This document shows, piece after piece, positions 7,748-15,481 of a stretch of DNA of 38,432 nt. The notes under the pieces were generated by a model, which had not been told where the DNA came from, ran no database searches, and worked only from the letters and a program-made list of their open reading frames with translations. The stretch is from an uncultured Eubacteriales bacterium (lineage in GTDB: Bacteria; Bacillota; Clostridia; Saccharofermentanales; Fastidiosipilaceae), in assembly GCA_902373515.1 (NCBI GenBank), contig CABKML010000014.1, forward strand, positions 1 through 38,432, given 5' to 3'. Position numbers and translations under genes: made by a program. How positions within the stretch are numbered: position 1 is the stretch's first letter; every line of letters begins with the position of its first letter.

Positions 7748-9421
7748 TCACTTCGTCTTGGCACCACTTGCCGGCGCCTGCCGTTTAATCTCGGCGACGA
7801 AGCATCTACCCCGTTCTTCAAAATTTTTGTATGTATTATAGCTGGCTGCTGCCGGCGAAAGCAAAATGCCCTTACCCGGTGCTGTAATTTTATAGGCCAG
7901 ATTCACCGCTTCCGCCATATCCTTTGCCTGATAATATCGTTTCAATTCTGCGGCACTTGCGCCGACAGCCAATTGCGCCGTTAAGGTATGACCGGTAGTC
8001 GGCAAGCCTATAACATTATACTCATGCTGCTTAAGGAAATCGTACAACTCGGTATAATCCAAGCCCCGATCCAAACCGCCCAATATTATCGTGCGACACT
8101 GCGGTAATGCGGTCAACGCTTTTATTGCCGCCAAAGGAATTGTACAGATAGAATCATTATAAACAGGATGACCGCCGTATGTACCGACATATTGCAAGCG
8201 ATGTTCCAAACCGGTAAATTCCCGCAGGCAGCTGATAATATGCTCCTTTTGTTCCGCCTGAAATTCCGCCCAAAGCTCCGGCAACACCAAGCTACGGCCA
8301 GCTGCAATTTTTTGCTCGCAATAATAGGCAAAAGTTGCCATCACCGCTAAAACACTGTCCAGTTTCATATGCAATATCTGCAATTGAGCGGAAAATTGCA
8401 AAGTGCACTTATTCCATGAATTTTCCTCAAACGCAGCAGCGTTCGACTGCTCAGCGTTTTCGGAACAATTTTCTAAAGAAATACCGCTAAACGTCAATTC
8501 GTTTTTTTCGGCGGAAAAAGTAAAAATATAGGCCTTCTTTTTTAATTCCTGTCGTGGCAATACATCATAATATTTTTGTAAATTCGCCAAATCGTTCTGA
8601 TTACGACACAAGTAAAAAACATATTGTTCTTGCTGTAAAACCGGTACGGCACGTTGCAGTAAATTATCTTCATATGCCGGCAAAATCACCCATTGACGCC
8701 CTGCAGGTTGTCTGATCAGATTAATTTTGGATTGATAATATTCTTCCAGGTTGTGATAATGATCCAAATGCTCCGGATACAAGTTTGTCAACAAAGCCAC
8801 TTTAGCAGTATGGGTGGTAAATTCCAACTGATGGCAGGAAAGTTCCAAAGCGGCAACATCTTTGCCCAAATCAAAAATCCGACTGAAAGCAGCTATGCCT
8901 ATATTGCCCAACAACGCCGATTTCTGTTCAGCGCAATCAAGCAAATGGTAAAGCAGCGAAGTAGTTGTTGATTTACCTTTAGTCCCGGTAACAGCTACCG
9001 TTTGCTGACAGTATATTTGCAAAAACAAGTCAACCTGACAGGTTATTTCCGTTTGCGGCGCAATTTGCAGGCGTGGAGCGGAAAAGTAGTTTTCTGCTGT
9101 CGCTTTTGCTTCATAGACATAATTTTTACAACTGATTCCCGGGCTTTTAAGCACAAGATCAAACTGTGATAAGTCAGGCGGATAAGCCGCCGCGCTGTAA
9201 CTACTTACAGCTATACCGTAAGCTTCGGCTTTTTCCAAGCATTCCGCACATGGTTCGGGATTAAGGTCACTAACGGCTAACGTTTCAAGTTCCAGTTGCC
9301 GGAAGTTAGCGGCAAAAAAATCGAAGCTGGCCTTGCCCTCTCTCCCCAGTCCCCAGATAAGAACTTTTTTACCGGCAAAACGGCTATGTAAAGCAGCAAC
9401 AATTGTTTCTTTATTATTCAT
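7748..9421 (-). CDS. murD2: MurD-family ligase, probably UDP-MurNAc-L-Ala--L-glutamate ligase (MurD2 type)
   Basis: The protein is a Mur ligase of about 557 residues. The N-terminal Rossmann domain starts KKVLIWGLGREGKAS. The ATP loop is VAVTGTKGKSTTT (about 144-156). The central domain keeps LSCHQLEF and NLYPEHLDHY, and the C-terminal domain has HRLQYVG, YNDSICTIPLAAIKAL and ILGGLDRGLDYTELYDFL. The usual GxHNxxN motif is replaced by ILHMKLDS. Normal MurD adds D-Glu to UDP-MurNAc-L-Ala; the MurD2 form adds L-Glu, which MurL then inverts. The murL neighbour, overlapping by 8 bases, is why I prefer MurD2. I chose ATG 9421 (MNNKETIV), 6 bases after GAGG; ATG 9427 sits directly on that site. Substrate stereochemistry is inferred from context. 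Confidence 0.82.
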   Translation of the reverse strand: MNNKETIVAALHSRFAGKKVLIWGLGREGKASFDFFAANFRQLELETLAVSDLNPEPCAECLEKAEAYGIAVSSYSAAAYPPDLSQFDLVLKSPGISCKNYVYEAKATAENYFSAPRLQIAPQTEITCQVDLFLQIYCQQTVAVTGTKGKSTTTSLLYHLLDCAEQKSALLGNIGIAAFSRIFDLGKDVAALELSCHQLEFTTHTAKVALLTNLYPEHLDHYHNLEEYYQSKINLIRQPAGRQWVILPAYEDNLLQRAVPVLQQEQYVFYLCRNQNDLANLQKYYDVLPRQELKKKAYIFTFSAEKNELTFSGISLENCSENAEQSNAAAFEENSWNKCTLQFSAQLQILHMKLDSVLAVMATFAYYCEQKIAAGRSLVLPELWAEFQAEQKEHIISCLREFTGLEHRLQYVGTYGGHPVYNDSICTIPLAAIKALTALPQCRTIILGGLDRGLDYTELYDFLKQHEYNVIGLPTTGHTLTAQLAVGASAAELKRYYQAKDMAEAVNLAYKITAPGKGILLSPAAASYNTYKNFEERGRCFVAEIKRQAPASGAKTK

Positions 9422-10994
9422 GCTCATCCTCTAAGTTTTTCATTTTATTTTGTAATATTTCTTGAAATTCCGGGTTTAAGAACGGTGCCGGCTGTAATTT
9501 TTGCAAATCAGGTCCTGCATAAACATACTCTCCGCCCGTAAATGTAAGCAAGCTGCAACGTCCGGCAGCTATCCAAGTAGCTGCAGCCTGTAAAAGGCAG
9601 GGTAACTGTTGTTCGGTGCGATGATAGCGATTCAAAAGTTTGCAGACGGCATACGCCACTTCTTCTACCGTCCCGACGCATTCAAACGGTTTTACCGGGG
9701 TGACACCCAATAATCCTGCCATATCCGGCAATAAATTTTCATTTTGTAAGATATCGGCACCAAAGGCTGTCCGCATTTCCTGCGGTGTTAAATACACTGC
9801 CAGAATCAAGCTGACGAACAAGCATTTCGGGCAATTATTACACCACTTGTTGGCCTGTTCTTTGGAACCTAAGTTGCAGGAGCGGAAATATGGCAAATAG
9901 GCTTTATAATGGGAAAAAATCCGAGCAATAGCTATTTCCTGTAAAGGTCGAAGAAAACTGAAATACTCCGCCGCTGCTCCCAGATACAGGCAACTGTACG
10001 TGCGGAAAGAGCTTTCAAATGCTGCCGTCTTGGAATACTGATGATTTATTTCCGTGCCGGCAACAGTAGCGGCGTTGCTGGAAGCTTCATTGGACAGGGC
10101 TACATACGGTATACCGGCCAGATAAGCGGCAAACAGGCTGTAAAAAGCTACTATGCCCGAGAAAGGCGTATGGCCGTTCCAAAAATTCAGTTGATTTAAA
10201 GTGACTATTTTCCGATCCAGACGGCGTTGCACAAACAGGCAATGTTCCTCATCTATTCCGGCCAAAGCAATGGAATCTCGGCTTGCCCGCGTGGGATTAA
10301 TTGCAAAAGCGTAACGTTCCTTTTCCCGTAAAAGTTCCAAGGTCACAATAGAATCCTTGCCGCCGCCGACAGGAATAAGGACTTTTCTCGCAGCGGCAGT
10401 CACTTTTCCATTATTAACAGGTTCAGTCAAAGCAAAGTGCGACAAAGCGGTGACTTTGTGCCAAGAAGAATCAGGGAGATTCAAAGGACAGGAAATTTCA
10501 ACCTGTTCCGTCGGCGAATAAGTCCACAATTCTGCGGGATTTATCGAGATATTATTGCGATAAAGGAACTCCCCCAAGCCGTTAAAATACCAATCCTGCC
10601 AGGAGGCTGCAGCTGTTGTGGGAATAGGGGCTAAAGAGCAGACATAACGCAAAGGGCAGACGCTTTTCCAATAAGAAATGCTCTCCATCAAGCCTATTTG
10701 AAATAAAAATGTTTCTATTGCCGTAATGTTGTTAATTCTTAATCGGTCTGCGACTTTATGCGGCACAGTTATGGTGCAAGATGGCAAAAAATCTGTTAAA
10801 GTCGGTAAAGAAAAATGCCATTGACAAGTGATTTCCCACGTCTTTTCCGTGTGATTAATCTTGTAAATAAAGTCATGGTAAACAAACAGGGGAAAAAGCC
10901 GACGCAATGCCAAAAATTTGCTATTGCCGGTCAGATGCAGAGCCTCCGCCGTTATCGGACTTAAATTCATCGCCTCTCCCTGTAATTGCTCCAT
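9414..10994 (-). CDS. murL: MurL-type UDP-MurNAc-L-Ala-L-Glu epimerase
   Basis: The protein has 526 residues. A PP-loop, IPVGGGKDSIVTLELL (about 207-222), fits an ATP-dependent, adenylating enzyme. The family-like blocks FWNGHTPFSGIVAFYSLFAAYL, VALSNEASSNAATV and INHQYSKTAAFESSF follow. A CNNCPKC cluster (385-391) comes after that and could bind metal. MurL is known from Xanthomonas, where it converts the terminal L-Glu of UDP-MurNAc-L-Ala-L-Glu to D-Glu using ATP. The adjacent MurD-type ligase fits this pathway. The N-terminal 200 residues are less recognisable. The gene has its own strong promoter. Starts at 10994 (GGAGAG upstream) and at the ninth codon, also a Met with GGGAG upstream, are both possible. 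I identified it from motifs and context, not from a database search. Confidence 0.82.
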   Translation of the reverse strand: MEQLQGEAMNLSPITAEALHLTGNSKFLALRRLFPLFVYHDFIYKINHTEKTWEITCQWHFSLPTLTDFLPSCTITVPHKVADRLRINNITAIETFLFQIGLMESISYWKSVCPLRYVCSLAPIPTTAAASWQDWYFNGLGEFLYRNNISINPAELWTYSPTEQVEISCPLNLPDSSWHKVTALSHFALTEPVNNGKVTAAARKVLIPVGGGKDSIVTLELLREKERYAFAINPTRASRDSIALAGIDEEHCLFVQRRLDRKIVTLNQLNFWNGHTPFSGIVAFYSLFAAYLAGIPYVALSNEASSNAATVAGTEINHQYSKTAAFESSFRTYSCLYLGAAAEYFSFLRPLQEIAIARIFSHYKAYLPYFRSCNLGSKEQANKWCNNCPKCLFVSLILAVYLTPQEMRTAFGADILQNENLLPDMAGLLGVTPVKPFECVGTVEEVAYAVCKLLNRYHRTEQQLPCLLQAAATWIAAGRCSLLTFTGGEYVYAGPDLQKLQPAPFLNPEFQEILQNKMKNLEDEHE

Positions 10995-11033: not shown

Positions 11034-11061
11034 ATTATAATTCAATTGTTCCGCCTGTCAA
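11034..11061 (-). promoter_or_regulatory. Promoter of the murL-murD2 operon
   Basis: On the minus strand TTGACA (11056-11061) and TATAAT (11034-11039) are separated by 16 bases. Both hexamers match the consensus exactly. They lie 40 bases before the murL ATG. Confidence 0.85.
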
Positions 11062-11566: not shown

Positions 11567-12733
11567 TTACGGACGTGGAATATATATAACCTGTTTATCG
11601 CGCAAATAGACGACATTCTTTCTTACCGTCAGTTTATTGGCACTGATAATCAAATCAATATAGTAATCGGGATTAACGGCAAAATTATCATATTCTCCGG
11701 CATAAGCACTTTGAGCAATAGCATAAATATTATCACTGATTTTTACAGCATAATACTTGCCGACAGTCGGAACTTTGCTGTTAGCCTTGGGTGAAGAAGA
11801 ATTTTGCACCAAATTATTAGGCACTTTGCGCGGTACGAACTTTTTAGTTCCGCTGACAGCAGGCTGCGTCTTTCCGGGTTTAGTGCTCGGCTTCAGTTTA
11901 TCCGTCTTTTTCGGCGCTGCAGTTGTCGTCTTAGCTTTACTTGCTGCAACTGTTTCCGTCACTTTGGCTGTTGTTTCCTCCGGTTTCTTGTCCGTCGACG
12001 TTTGCGCTTGCTCATTCAACGATTCCGTACTGCCCGCTATTTTGTTCAAAAGATCGGTAAAATGTTCTCCTTCTTCCTGCAACGCCTGTTTAACATGCGC
12101 TTGTAATACGGCAACATCGGTCAAACTCAATTGTATTTTTTCGGAACGTAAACCCGGTAAGCTCAAGCCCGGAGCCGGAACTTTTTGCAATTGCATACTT
12201 TCCTTCACTTTTTCCAAATTGCCATTGCCGGCAGATAAGCACGCGCCCAGTTCCTTTTTCAGTTCGTTATAGGCCGTCACATCGGCCGGACTTTGGAGAA
12301 TTTGTTTAACTGAATTTCGAACTTTGGAATCTGCAGTATTGAGTTCTTTATAGAATAACGGTATAACGCTCGCTGCTGTCAAATGTTCTACCTCAAGCGC
12401 TTGTTGATCGGACGTATCGGCAGTATCCTGCATCTGCAAAGTGCTGAATTTTTGCACAGATTGTGCCAAAGCCGCCTGCACCACAGCCTGTGCCTCACCT
12501 GTCGGCTTACCGTACAAAGCTTCTTTCGTTTCTGCGTCAAGGTAAGCTACCGCCTGAGAATTGTTCGTATTATAAGTGTTGATAAAATCGGAATAAAGAG
12601 CGGCATTTCTTTGTGAGCGGTAGATAAAAGCTGCTGCATATGCCGTTAAAACGATAATTAAAGCGATGATAGCCGCCAACAGCTTTTTCAAGCCGCTGAT
12701 ACGGATACGATTCAAGATTTGATCAAAACTCAT
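11567..12733 (-). CDS. Membrane-anchored LysM protein
   Basis: 388 residues. A short basic cytoplasmic start is followed by one membrane segment (about residues 17-38, LLAAIIALIIVLTAYAAAFIY). There is no signal peptidase site, so this looks like a type II anchor with the rest outside. Residues 40-230 are mostly helical. Residues 235-320 are a Thr/Lys/Pro-rich low-complexity linker that could span the wall. The C-terminus (about 325-388) resembles a LysM domain: YYAVKISDNIYAIAQSAY, then a variable middle, then DKQVIYIPRP. LysM domains bind GlcNAc-containing glycans such as peptidoglycan. AGAGG lies 8 bases before the ATG. No catalytic domain is visible, so it may be a wall-tethering or scaffold protein. 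The middle region is unrecognised. Confidence 0.8.
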   Translation of the reverse strand: MSFDQILNRIRISGLKKLLAAIIALIIVLTAYAAAFIYRSQRNAALYSDFINTYNTNNSQAVAYLDAETKEALYGKPTGEAQAVVQAALAQSVQKFSTLQMQDTADTSDQQALEVEHLTAASVIPLFYKELNTADSKVRNSVKQILQSPADVTAYNELKKELGACLSAGNGNLEKVKESMQLQKVPAPGLSLPGLRSEKIQLSLTDVAVLQAHVKQALQEEGEHFTDLLNKIAGSTESLNEQAQTSTDKKPEETTAKVTETVAASKAKTTTAAPKKTDKLKPSTKPGKTQPAVSGTKKFVPRKVPNNLVQNSSSPKANSKVPTVGKYYAVKISDNIYAIAQSAYAGEYDNFAVNPDYYIDLIISANKLTVRKNVVYLRDKQVIYIPRP

Positions 12734-13336: not shown

Positions 13337-15481
13337 TTAATTTCTTACTGTTTTTCTGCCGCTGAACAGCAATAAGCTCAACAGTCCGACTGCGACCAGA
13401 TAAAGGCTCAATTTCCCGCTCGTTTCCGGTTTGTTGCCGACTGCAATCTGACGGGTCACTGTAATTTTAAGAGTCTGCTCACACTTAATTTCCTTCCCGC
13501 TTGTTGTTTTACCTGTAACTGTAATCTGATACGTTTTTGCACCTTTGCTGTCCAGTTCCTGTTGCAAGGAATTGTCTTTAATAATGCCGCTGATTGTACC
13601 GGCAGCCAGCACTTTCCTGTTATTGGGATCGGGAGCAGCGGGCGTGAATTTTAAGCCTATTTTTGCTAATTCCGTTTGCCAAGCCTGATCAAACGCAAAA
13701 GTCGGTAAGTTTTCCTCTTTTTGGCTTGTGACGGTAATTTTAATCTGATTTATTTCCTGCCCCTCGTATACTGTCTGTTCAGGCGGCTGCGCTTCCATTT
13801 GCACATCAGCCGGCGGATAATCTATCTTATAATTCTGAAATAATGAGGTAGGCGTAAAGGTAATTTTCCGTGTCGGAAATAGCTGCATATCGGCAGGAAT
13901 ATTGTACTTTTGCCGCATCTCCTGCTCTTTGGCTTGAATAGCCTTGTCTACCTGATGTTTAACGATCTTCATATAATCTCCGGACGCCGGCTTGGAGGTA
14001 TCAGTTTCAAAGTTCTCATTAACCCGGGAATCGTAGCATGCCGGTAATTGCAATGTTTCTGTTTTGTCTTTATAGGTTATTGTGATTTCTTTGTAATATT
14101 TAGCTTTGGCTCCCAGCTCCAGCAGGTCCGGATTATCCGTAACCACCAGATTTTTCAGAATGTAATCATTTTTCGTTTGCTCTTCCGTTTGACCGAACAG
14201 GTTGGGATCCTTCAGACTCAACTTGTTTATCAGTTTTGTTCTACCTTTTTCTGTTTTAGTATTTTTAGATGCAATCAAAGCATTTACATGCCTTGTTATA
14301 TTTCTCTTTGTATATTCAAAGTCAACCTTCCAATTATTCGCCACCAACACGCCTCTGAAGCCGGCAAAAGTATTTTGCAAGTTCGTTATACTGTAAAGAC
14401 TACCACCCTTATAGTACAAATTCAGATTGCTGAAATTAAGCACGAAGTCATCCGTTCCCGCATTTTGAAACATAGATTCCATATAAACGATGTTGAAGTT
14501 GGACTGCCATTTACTGAAATCTGTATAACCTGTAAGGCTCTCCATTCCTTGGAAGTAACTTCCAAAGTCAGTATTATGATTTGTTTTAAATTTCCACTTG
14601 CTTAACTCGTTAATATCCGTAATATTCTTATCGCCTCGCAGTAAAGCGTAGGCAGATGTCATAAACCGGACATTAACATCGCCGATGTTGCCCAAAGAGG
14701 CGAGTTGGTTTCCTTGTAAGAAAGAATGTGCCCAGATGTCACGCGGCACTTTTCCTCGAGTTAATTCTTTGTAAAAATATATTCTTCCTTCAAAGTGCAA
14801 AGTATATCCCGGATGTTCAGCAATAAACTTTTCGATAGCTTCAGCCTCAGCATTTCTAGCTGAAAAAAATTCATAATAATCTTTGTCTGCCTTTGTTGCA
14901 TTACCATGTGCTATATCATCATCCTTAACTTCTTTTCCGGGATCTAAACACGTTATAAAGCCTTCCTTGGCGCCGTTTTTCGGACGGATAATTACCAGTT
15001 TGGCAGCATCATCAGCAATCGCCTCACAGCCCTGCATCTTCATCACATCTGCCTCTTCCAGCTTATCGCGCCAAGGCGGCAAAGCGTCGCCGGTGAGAGC
15101 TTGCGGTGTATTTAAGTTGATTTGAGCCGAGCGCTGTTGCTGCAAAGCCTTTTCCGGCAGCGGCCGCGGCAAATAGTGATCGTTCTTTTTTTCTTCATTA
15201 CTTGCAACTTCCGGCTTGTTCGCAGCTTCCTTAACAGTTGCAGGTTCAAGCTTCTTCTCAAGCGGCGTCAAGCCGGCCGTTGCCCTGTCCGGCTTTGCTG
15301 CACCTTCGGCCGGCAAAGCGGTCGAATTTGAAGCTTCTGCCACATCAGGCTGCAAAGTTGAATCTGCGGCCGAAGCAGCCGTTAAAGAGGCGGTATCCGC
15401 CGCGGCAACCTGTTGTAAAATAACTGAAGAAAAAAGCAAAAATGCTGCAAGAGCAACTGCCGTTACACGCTTAATAAACAC
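13337..15481 (-). CDS. Cell-surface protein with BspA-like region and atypical C-terminal sorting signal
   Basis: 714 residues from a GTG start. An in-frame stop lies two codons upstream, and no ATG occurs within the signal peptide. Residues 1-28 are the signal peptide (VALAAFLLFSSVILQQVAAA). About 30-125 is Ala/Glu/Lys-rich low complexity. About 150-390 includes diverged repeats of the BspA/DUF285 kind (INELSKWKF, YFQGMESLTGYTDFSKWQ, YMESMFQNAG). About 555-680 looks like a beta-sandwich domain. The C-terminus has NKPETSG (683-689), a hydrophobic stretch and RKTVRN. This is the layout of a sortase substrate, but Lys stands where Leu is expected and Ser-Gly follows Thr. Secretion and envelope attachment are likely; the binding partner is unknown. 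A Fur-like box lies just upstream. Confidence 0.82.
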   Translation of the reverse strand: MFIKRVTAVALAAFLLFSSVILQQVAAADTASLTAASAADSTLQPDVAEASNSTALPAEGAAKPDRATAGLTPLEKKLEPATVKEAANKPEVASNEEKKNDHYLPRPLPEKALQQQRSAQINLNTPQALTGDALPPWRDKLEEADVMKMQGCEAIADDAAKLVIIRPKNGAKEGFITCLDPGKEVKDDDIAHGNATKADKDYYEFFSARNAEAEAIEKFIAEHPGYTLHFEGRIYFYKELTRGKVPRDIWAHSFLQGNQLASLGNIGDVNVRFMTSAYALLRGDKNITDINELSKWKFKTNHNTDFGSYFQGMESLTGYTDFSKWQSNFNIVYMESMFQNAGTDDFVLNFSNLNLYYKGGSLYSITNLQNTFAGFRGVLVANNWKVDFEYTKRNITRHVNALIASKNTKTEKGRTKLINKLSLKDPNLFGQTEEQTKNDYILKNLVVTDNPDLLELGAKAKYYKEITITYKDKTETLQLPACYDSRVNENFETDTSKPASGDYMKIVKHQVDKAIQAKEQEMRQKYNIPADMQLFPTRKITFTPTSLFQNYKIDYPPADVQMEAQPPEQTVYEGQEINQIKITVTSQKEENLPTFAFDQAWQTELAKIGLKFTPAAPDPNNRKVLAAGTISGIIKDNSLQQELDSKGAKTYQITVTGKTTSGKEIKCEQTLKITVTRQIAVGNKPETSGKLSLYLVAVGLLSLLLFSGRKTVRN

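Follow-up and report, generated by a model that had tools for sequence, protein, structure and literature searches.

The window analyzed here, a 38,432-nucleotide stretch of DNA from an uncultured Eubacteriales bacterium (contig CABKML010000014.1), carries adjoining genes for a MurL-like PP-loop protein and a MurD-type ligase, and this pair is very probably a two-gene operon for an alternative D-glutamate (D-Glu) route of peptidoglycan synthesis. D-Glu is required for peptidoglycan, and drugs have been sought against the glutamate racemase MurI. In the alternative route, cell-wall D-Glu would be made by flipping an L-Glu that is already attached to the precursor. Both enzyme activities (ligation of L-Glu by MurD2, and by MurL an ATP-dependent, one-way L-to-D epimerisation that releases AMP), as well as the proposal of an adenylation step, come from work on Xanthomonas, for which the D-Glu-requiring E. 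coli strain WM335 was employed (PMC8788868), and by analogy the window pair would have MurL and MurD2 activities. An earlier, sequence-only reading of the window had proposed the same route. Our observations support it through homology to the MurL profile, motifs held in common with Xanthomonas MurL, L-Glu-type specificity residues in the ligase, linkage of the two genes as neighbors or fusions, and the absence of MurI over its cut-off from 79 of 79 MurL-bearing relatives (hereafter carriers).

Family membership and conserved motifs of MurL

When the 526-residue product of the first gene was scanned against NCBIfam, the sole match was NF041275 MurL (E 1e-60, 205.5 bits, residues 88–460), a model that is matched at E ≤ 1e-5 by 20 of 20 aligned MurL homologues. 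No Pfam family was matched by the window protein at E ≤ 0.01; PF26298 and PF26299 are precomputed on P0001, the closest MurL among the matches listed, which is 97% identical to it. Some homologues (P0009, P0014, and P0051) also have an extra precomputed Pfam domain, PF19932. A protein search of plasmid records returned the annotated murL of Xanthomonas sacchari (NZ_CP010410.1), whose product is 28% identical to the window MurL over 442 aligned residues and has the motifs GGGKDS, SNExS, NHQxSK, SCN, WCxxCPKC, and KPFECVG in common with it. The four motifs named in the sequence-only reading (VGGGKDS, SNEASSN, NHQYSK, and CNNCPKC) are all present in the protein, and the profile comparison it called for points to MurL.

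Conservation was tallied over 120 listed homologues of the 7,859 found in the protein database. Most positions of the conserved motifs are kept in 117 to 120 of these, and 79 window residues are kept in at least 117, of which 43 are kept also in both the Xanthomonas protein and a MurL-like protein from Pseudonocardia. The latter deviates from the motifs at K213 (Arg) and S301 (Ala). Cys373, Cys385, Cys388, and Cys391, present in the Xanthomonas and Pseudonocardia proteins too, are by analogy a probable Zn site. A fifth invariant residue, Cys439, is likewise found in both proteins; we infer that MurL binds Zn and that Cys439 participates in the reaction. The Pseudonocardia match (L156, 2800–4194) occurs in three plasmid records; the record that we examined has no ligase annotated beside it, and its loop reads GGGRDS.

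A predicted QueC/QatC-like fold

The predicted structure of the window MurL has an ATPase core that resembles QatC and QueC. Foldseek alone was weak, and the ranking of QatC and QueC comes from the VIA second look, in which absence of a family from the ranking does not rule it out. Sequence searches of the PDB with MurL gave no informative relative (best TtuA, E 0.0015), and QueC and QatC chains were not matched when the PDB was searched with a sequence profile. There are differences from the QueC family: its Pfam model PF06508 is not matched by the window MurL at E ≤ 0.01, its loop is SGGxDS where the window protein has GGGKDS, and its Cys motif is C-x8-CxxCxxC as compared to C-x11-C-x2-C-x2-C. 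The reaction of the QueC, QatC, and Cap9 fold family also differs from that of MurL. Zn sites have been described for QueC and QatC (PMC13329287, PMC13279940), and a Cys spacing wider than x8 is known in QatC (PMC13279940).

In the proposed mechanism, MurL would be an ATPase of the PP-loop type, folded like QueC/QatC and carrying a Zn-type Cys site, and would adenylate the α-carboxylate of the attached L-Glu; the fold fits such an adenylation. The MurL epimerase has been said to be without known conserved domains in the accessible parts of PMC8788868 and PMC5808125, and a QueC-like fold, if the model holds, would offer a concrete mechanism for it. This fold was not found for MurL in the titles and abstracts searched, and neither "MurL" nor "epimerase" occurs in the text of two papers on the QueC family (PMC13329287 and PMC13279940). 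On balance we favor, with some reserve, a fuller picture in which a zinc PP-loop MurL adenylates the glutamyl carboxylate, Cys439 is a possible acid/base, and the cassette patchily replaces MurI-MurD across Clostridia, Bacilli, and Bacteroidales.

Specificity residues and phylogeny of the ligase

The second gene of the pair encodes a ligase that passes the general murD model TIGR01087 (260.5 bits, cut-off 211.95). At K152, E195, H220, K234, R410, and D425 it agrees with residues of E. coli MurD that we take to be catalytic. E. coli MurD is numbered as published (first Met omitted), and its residue names beyond D182, K319, K348, A414, and L416 are presumed. The positions of interest are those at which X. 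oryzae MurD2 has E197, R358, P433, and F435 and E. coli MurD has D182, K348, A414, and L416; according to the same source, changing E197 and R358 switched MurD2 to D-Glu, and its stereospecificity was unchanged in the P433A and F435L mutants (PMC8788868). X. sacchari MurD2 has E, R, P, and F at the four positions (E206 and R367 being the first two), and the window ligase has Glu219 and Arg454 at the first two.

The same E/R combination is found in 13 of 13 MurL-linked ligases of the related order (defined below) and in 53 of 74 partners from the wider set of loci, the remainder being 18 with D/R and three truncated. As controls, 30 MurI-bearing genomes were chosen across the order, giving 26 with a MurD over cut-off (L124–L149); 25 of these read N/K, and one reads N with the second position missing. 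The position of E. coli D317 is Ser in all 26 of these ordinary MurDs. A quick ligase tree of 112 rows places 87 MurL-linked ligases (the window, 71 partners, 13 from the order, and two fusions) on one side of a single branch (Shimodaira-Hasegawa-like approximate likelihood ratio test, 99), and 24 controls together with E. coli MurD on the opposite side. Four duplicate and five truncated rows were omitted from this tree and one gene was entered twice (L022 and L107); its controls come from one order only, with MurDs of Bacteroidota and other Bacillota unsampled.

Linkage and fusion with MurL across genomes

A scan of one genome per species returned at least 589 MurL-like stretches, at least 573 of them confirmed, and the best 80 loci were used. 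In 74 of these best 80 loci, MurL is followed downstream on the same strand by a MurD-like ligase; the other six (L008, L015, L020, L031, L033, and L052) have no ligase match beside MurL. Among the 13 carriers of the related order, MurL and the ligase share one open frame in six and lie in adjoining or overlapping frames in seven. Fusions of MurL with MurD also occur as database proteins, namely P0071 (879 aa) and P0077 (890 aa). G069, which was the nearest whole genome found, encodes a MurL with 51% identity to that of the window and a partner ligase with 54%.

Three loci deserve separate mention. MurL and the ligase occur in a genome bin labeled Mycoplasma (L040, 4001–5212), which is odd for a wall-less genus, and the label may be wrong. 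The MurL match of a Bacilli bin (L001, 1242–2495) contains one in-frame TAG. In an unverified "Bacteriophage sp." record from human feces (L155, MT836755.1, 3887–6497), which is perhaps a bacterial fragment, a match to MurL precedes one to a MurD-like ligase; a scan of viral contigs with MurL found no relative.

MurI, MurD, and transaminase content of carriers

MurI was scored by the cut-off of TIGR00067. The order used for comparison is that of G016, comprises 188 genomes including G069, and probably includes the window, given its nearness to G069. MurL was found in 13 of the 188. MurI passes the cut-off in 136 genomes of the order, all of them among the 175 non-carriers and none among the 13 carriers (Fisher p 1.6e-8, uncorrected for kinship). 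Forty further carriers were assembled, 29 from 30 of the best 80 loci (the thirtieth, G016, being a member of the order) and the other 11 from a class-wide sample of 341 genomes, 15 of which have MurL. None of the 40 has MurI over cut-off, as compared to 37 of 40 non-carriers of the class-wide sample (G218–G259 minus two carriers; p 2.3e-19); the 29 include Bacilli, and the carrier and non-carrier groups are unmatched. Among 26 Bacteroidota carriers, picked by record title from the loci, the count is again zero, completing the 0 of 79 (13 + 40 + 26).

Racemase matches below the cut-off at E ≤ 1e-3 occur in one of the 13, 13 of the 40, and five of the 26 carriers. The one in the order is a racemase-family match in G069 (E 1.3e-5); no racemase match at E 1e-3 was found in its other 12 carriers. 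Both genes of G069 lie on a contig of 1,582,680 bases in a genome listed as 1.6 Mb, so a missed murI is unlikely there. Genes may be missed in an individual genome, but a pattern seen in 79 carriers is not dependent on any one of them. In all 13 carriers of the order, the MurL-linked ligase is the sole MurD over cut-off. A D-amino-acid transaminase (TIGR01121) was considered as the carriers' source of D-Glu and rejected at the curated cut-off only, which is passed by 0 of 188 genomes of the order and 0 of the 40 further carriers.

Alternative explanations

Several observations weigh against assigning the pair to the MurL/MurD2 route. The 205.5 bits of the window MurL fall short of the NF041275 equivalog cut-off of 700 bits; the model is named for Xanthomonadales and is clade-specific by name, so the low score bars the label "Xanthomonadales MurL" and not membership in the wider family. 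In the ligase, Ala528 and Tyr530 take the place of X. oryzae P433 and F435. Pro/Phe is found there in 0 of 74 wider MurL-linked ligases, and we do not treat it as defining because the P433A and F435L mutants kept MurD2 stereospecificity. The first specificity position is Asp, as in E. coli MurD, in 18 of the 74 wider partners, and Arg alone is not diagnostic because it also occupies the second position in the D-Glu enzyme MurD of S. mutans (PMC8788868). The ligase is also degenerate at GxHNxxN, as the sequence-only reading had remarked: it reads ILHMKLD, with Met354 and Asp357 in the two Asn columns (Lys and Ser in a smaller alignment, so that the exact columns are uncertain), and both Asn are kept in 26 of 26 control MurDs.

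At the level of genomes, the absence of MurI from the window's own organism is drawn by analogy from its relatives. In the order, 39 of 175 non-carriers (G167–G194 and others) are also without MurI over cut-off, which means that MurI absence is not peculiar to genomes with MurL. A profile search for a divergent MurL in these 39 found none, and the D-amino-acid transaminase is not over cut-off in them either; other sources of D-Glu, or gaps in detection, therefore exist. The TIGR01121 cut-off is strict, being passed in one of 14 control genomes, and weak matches of the class IV aminotransferase type occur in many genomes. Finally, a second MurD over cut-off is present in 12 of the 40 carriers outside the order (L157–L163 and L165–L169). 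All 12 have Lys at the K348 position, with Asn in eight, Asp in three, and Glu in one at the first position, and to judge from these residues the second enzyme looks like the D-Glu type, though MurI was not found over cut-off. One of these genomes (G022) has no ligase match beside MurL and an E/R ligase on another contig.

These second MurDs speak for a coexistence of both routes, in which the pair would be auxiliary beside a canonical MurD fed by D-Glu from elsewhere; two of the genomes concerned (G011 and G015) have a transaminase-like match, which at 233 and 230 bits stays under the cut-off of 277 bits. We consider coexistence unlikely, as in all 13 carriers of the related order, G069 included, no MurD besides the linked ligase passes its cut-off, and MurI does not pass its own. 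A different possibility is that the ligase is an ordinary D-Glu MurD, with an unrecognised racemase as its source of D-Glu and some other role for the PP-loop protein. The score against the general murD model, the sub-cut-off match of G069, and the 39 non-carriers with D-Glu sources that escape these models would all allow this. Against it stand the E/R residues and separate branch of the MurL-linked ligases, their linkage and fusion with MurL, and the lack of a racemase match at E 1e-3 in all carriers of the order but G069, and we regard it as very improbable. In our estimate it is equally improbable that the PP-loop protein acts, as a paralogue of MurL, on a different peptide or nucleotide-peptide, epimerising or otherwise modifying it. 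Its low identity to Xanthomonas MurL and score under the equivalog cut-off would permit such a role, and the QueC-like fold family is functionally diverse (PMC13329287). Yet it has the same gene order beside a MurD2-type ligase and the same conserved residues as the Xanthomonas protein, and carriers uniformly lack MurI over cut-off. A MurL/MurD2 operon thus remains our reading of the pair.

Organization of the locus

Features of the operon are collected in Table 1. The overlap of the ligase and PP-loop genes described in the sequence-only reading was recovered, both open reading frames lying where it had placed them on the minus strand, and the 14 shared bases are a probable site of translational coupling. 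The pair also has its own consensus promoter, as had been claimed, about 40 bases from the MurL start; for the region as a whole, promoter-like sites show no excess (nine vs 8.4 expected).

Table 1. Coordinates of features of the murL-murD2 pair within the window
Feature	Position	Strand	Detail
murL-like gene, first of the pair	9414–10994	-	526 aa
MurD-type ligase gene, second of the pair	7748–9427	-	559 aa
Overlap of murL 3' end and murD2 start	9414–9427	-	14 bases
Promoter upstream of murL, TTGACA-16-TATAAT	11034–11061	-	12/12 consensus positions
MurL PP-loop GGGKDS, residues 210–215	10350–10367	-	Each residue in 120/120 listed homologues
MurL Cys373, Cys385, Cys388, Cys391 (C-x11-C-x2-C-x2-C)	9822–9878	-	Each in 120/120 listed homologues
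MurL KPFECVG, residues 435–441, with fifth invariant Cys439	9672–9692	-	Cys439 in 120/120 listed homologues
MurD2 Glu219 (X. oryzae MurD2 E197, E. coli D182)	8771–8773	-	Alignment
MurD2 Arg454 (X. oryzae MurD2 R358, E. coli K348)	8066–8068	-	Alignment
MurD2 degenerate GxHNxxN (ILHMKLD), after an insertion relative to E. coli MurD	8357–8377	-	Alignment

Farther upstream of the operon, beyond the promoter, are two plus-strand tRNA genes and, also upstream, a 388-residue open reading frame without a Pfam match. Of the upstream reading frames, two (11567–12733 and 13337–15481), both without a Pfam match, look membrane-bound or exported by eye. The remainder of the window has the look of ordinary chromosome, with genes for ribosomal protein L10, RsmG/GidB, MnmG, MnmE, Jag, YidC, RnpA, RNase Y, NAD kinase, DXP synthase, and exonuclease VII; L11, NusG, and SecE were read by eye from the open reading frames. 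The only near-identity match returned from plasmids was 64 bases long and came from the tRNA-Tyr next to the operon.

Range and significance

The range of MurL is given in the accessible parts of the literature as Gamma- and Alphaproteobacteria and actinobacteria (PMC8788868), and orthologues of low similarity are noted for a fungus, cyanobacteria, and an amoeba (PMC5808125). MurL in Bacillota or Bacteroidota was not found in the titles and abstracts searched; in other literature checked, "MurL" denotes glutamate racemase, MurI, and not the epimerase, and further single-word matches were unopened. The suggestion in the sequence-only reading that the pair extends the known range stands in so far as the window's host lies beyond the groups named in the accessible parts of these two papers. 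It needs tempering in that thousands of such proteins are already in the databases and JGI has named a few as the epimerase. The pathway is thus already known and rarely described, and its wider range in Bacillota and Bacteroidota is the addition.

Should some of the Clostridia, Bacilli, and Bacteroidales bypass MurI via MurL and MurD2, MurI inhibitors would miss these bacteria. Inhibitors of MurL and MurD2 have been proposed as narrow-spectrum agents against Xanthomonas-type bacteria (PMC8788868); their reach would then extend to anaerobes such as those that occur in gut and rumen samples.

Comparison with known systems

The closest characterized counterpart is the Xanthomonas pair (X. oryzae MurL XOO_1319 and MurD2 XOO_1320; our comparator is X. 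sacchari NZ_CP010410.1), which has the same murL-murD2 order with overlapping ends, by 20 bases in X. sacchari and 14 in the window, and the same MurL motifs and ligase E/R residues. The window pair differs in the low identity and longer N-terminus of its MurL and in its ligase, with Ala/Tyr for Pro/Phe at the other Glu-site positions and a degenerate GxHNxxN. The hosts differ as well, Xanthomonas being proteobacterial and the window host related to Clostridia. Nearer relatives are G069, in which MurL is accompanied by a linked ligase as in the window, the window representing another lineage, and Amygdalobacter nucleatus, a Gram-positive anaerobe (PMC11318147) whose P0002, annotated as a hypothetical protein, is the closest named MurL relative among the matches listed (48%). 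The canonical MurD and MurI route covers the same step of peptidoglycan synthesis as the pair and differs from it in the specificity residues and tree position of its ligase and in a racemase that carriers of MurL lack at the TIGR00067 cut-off.

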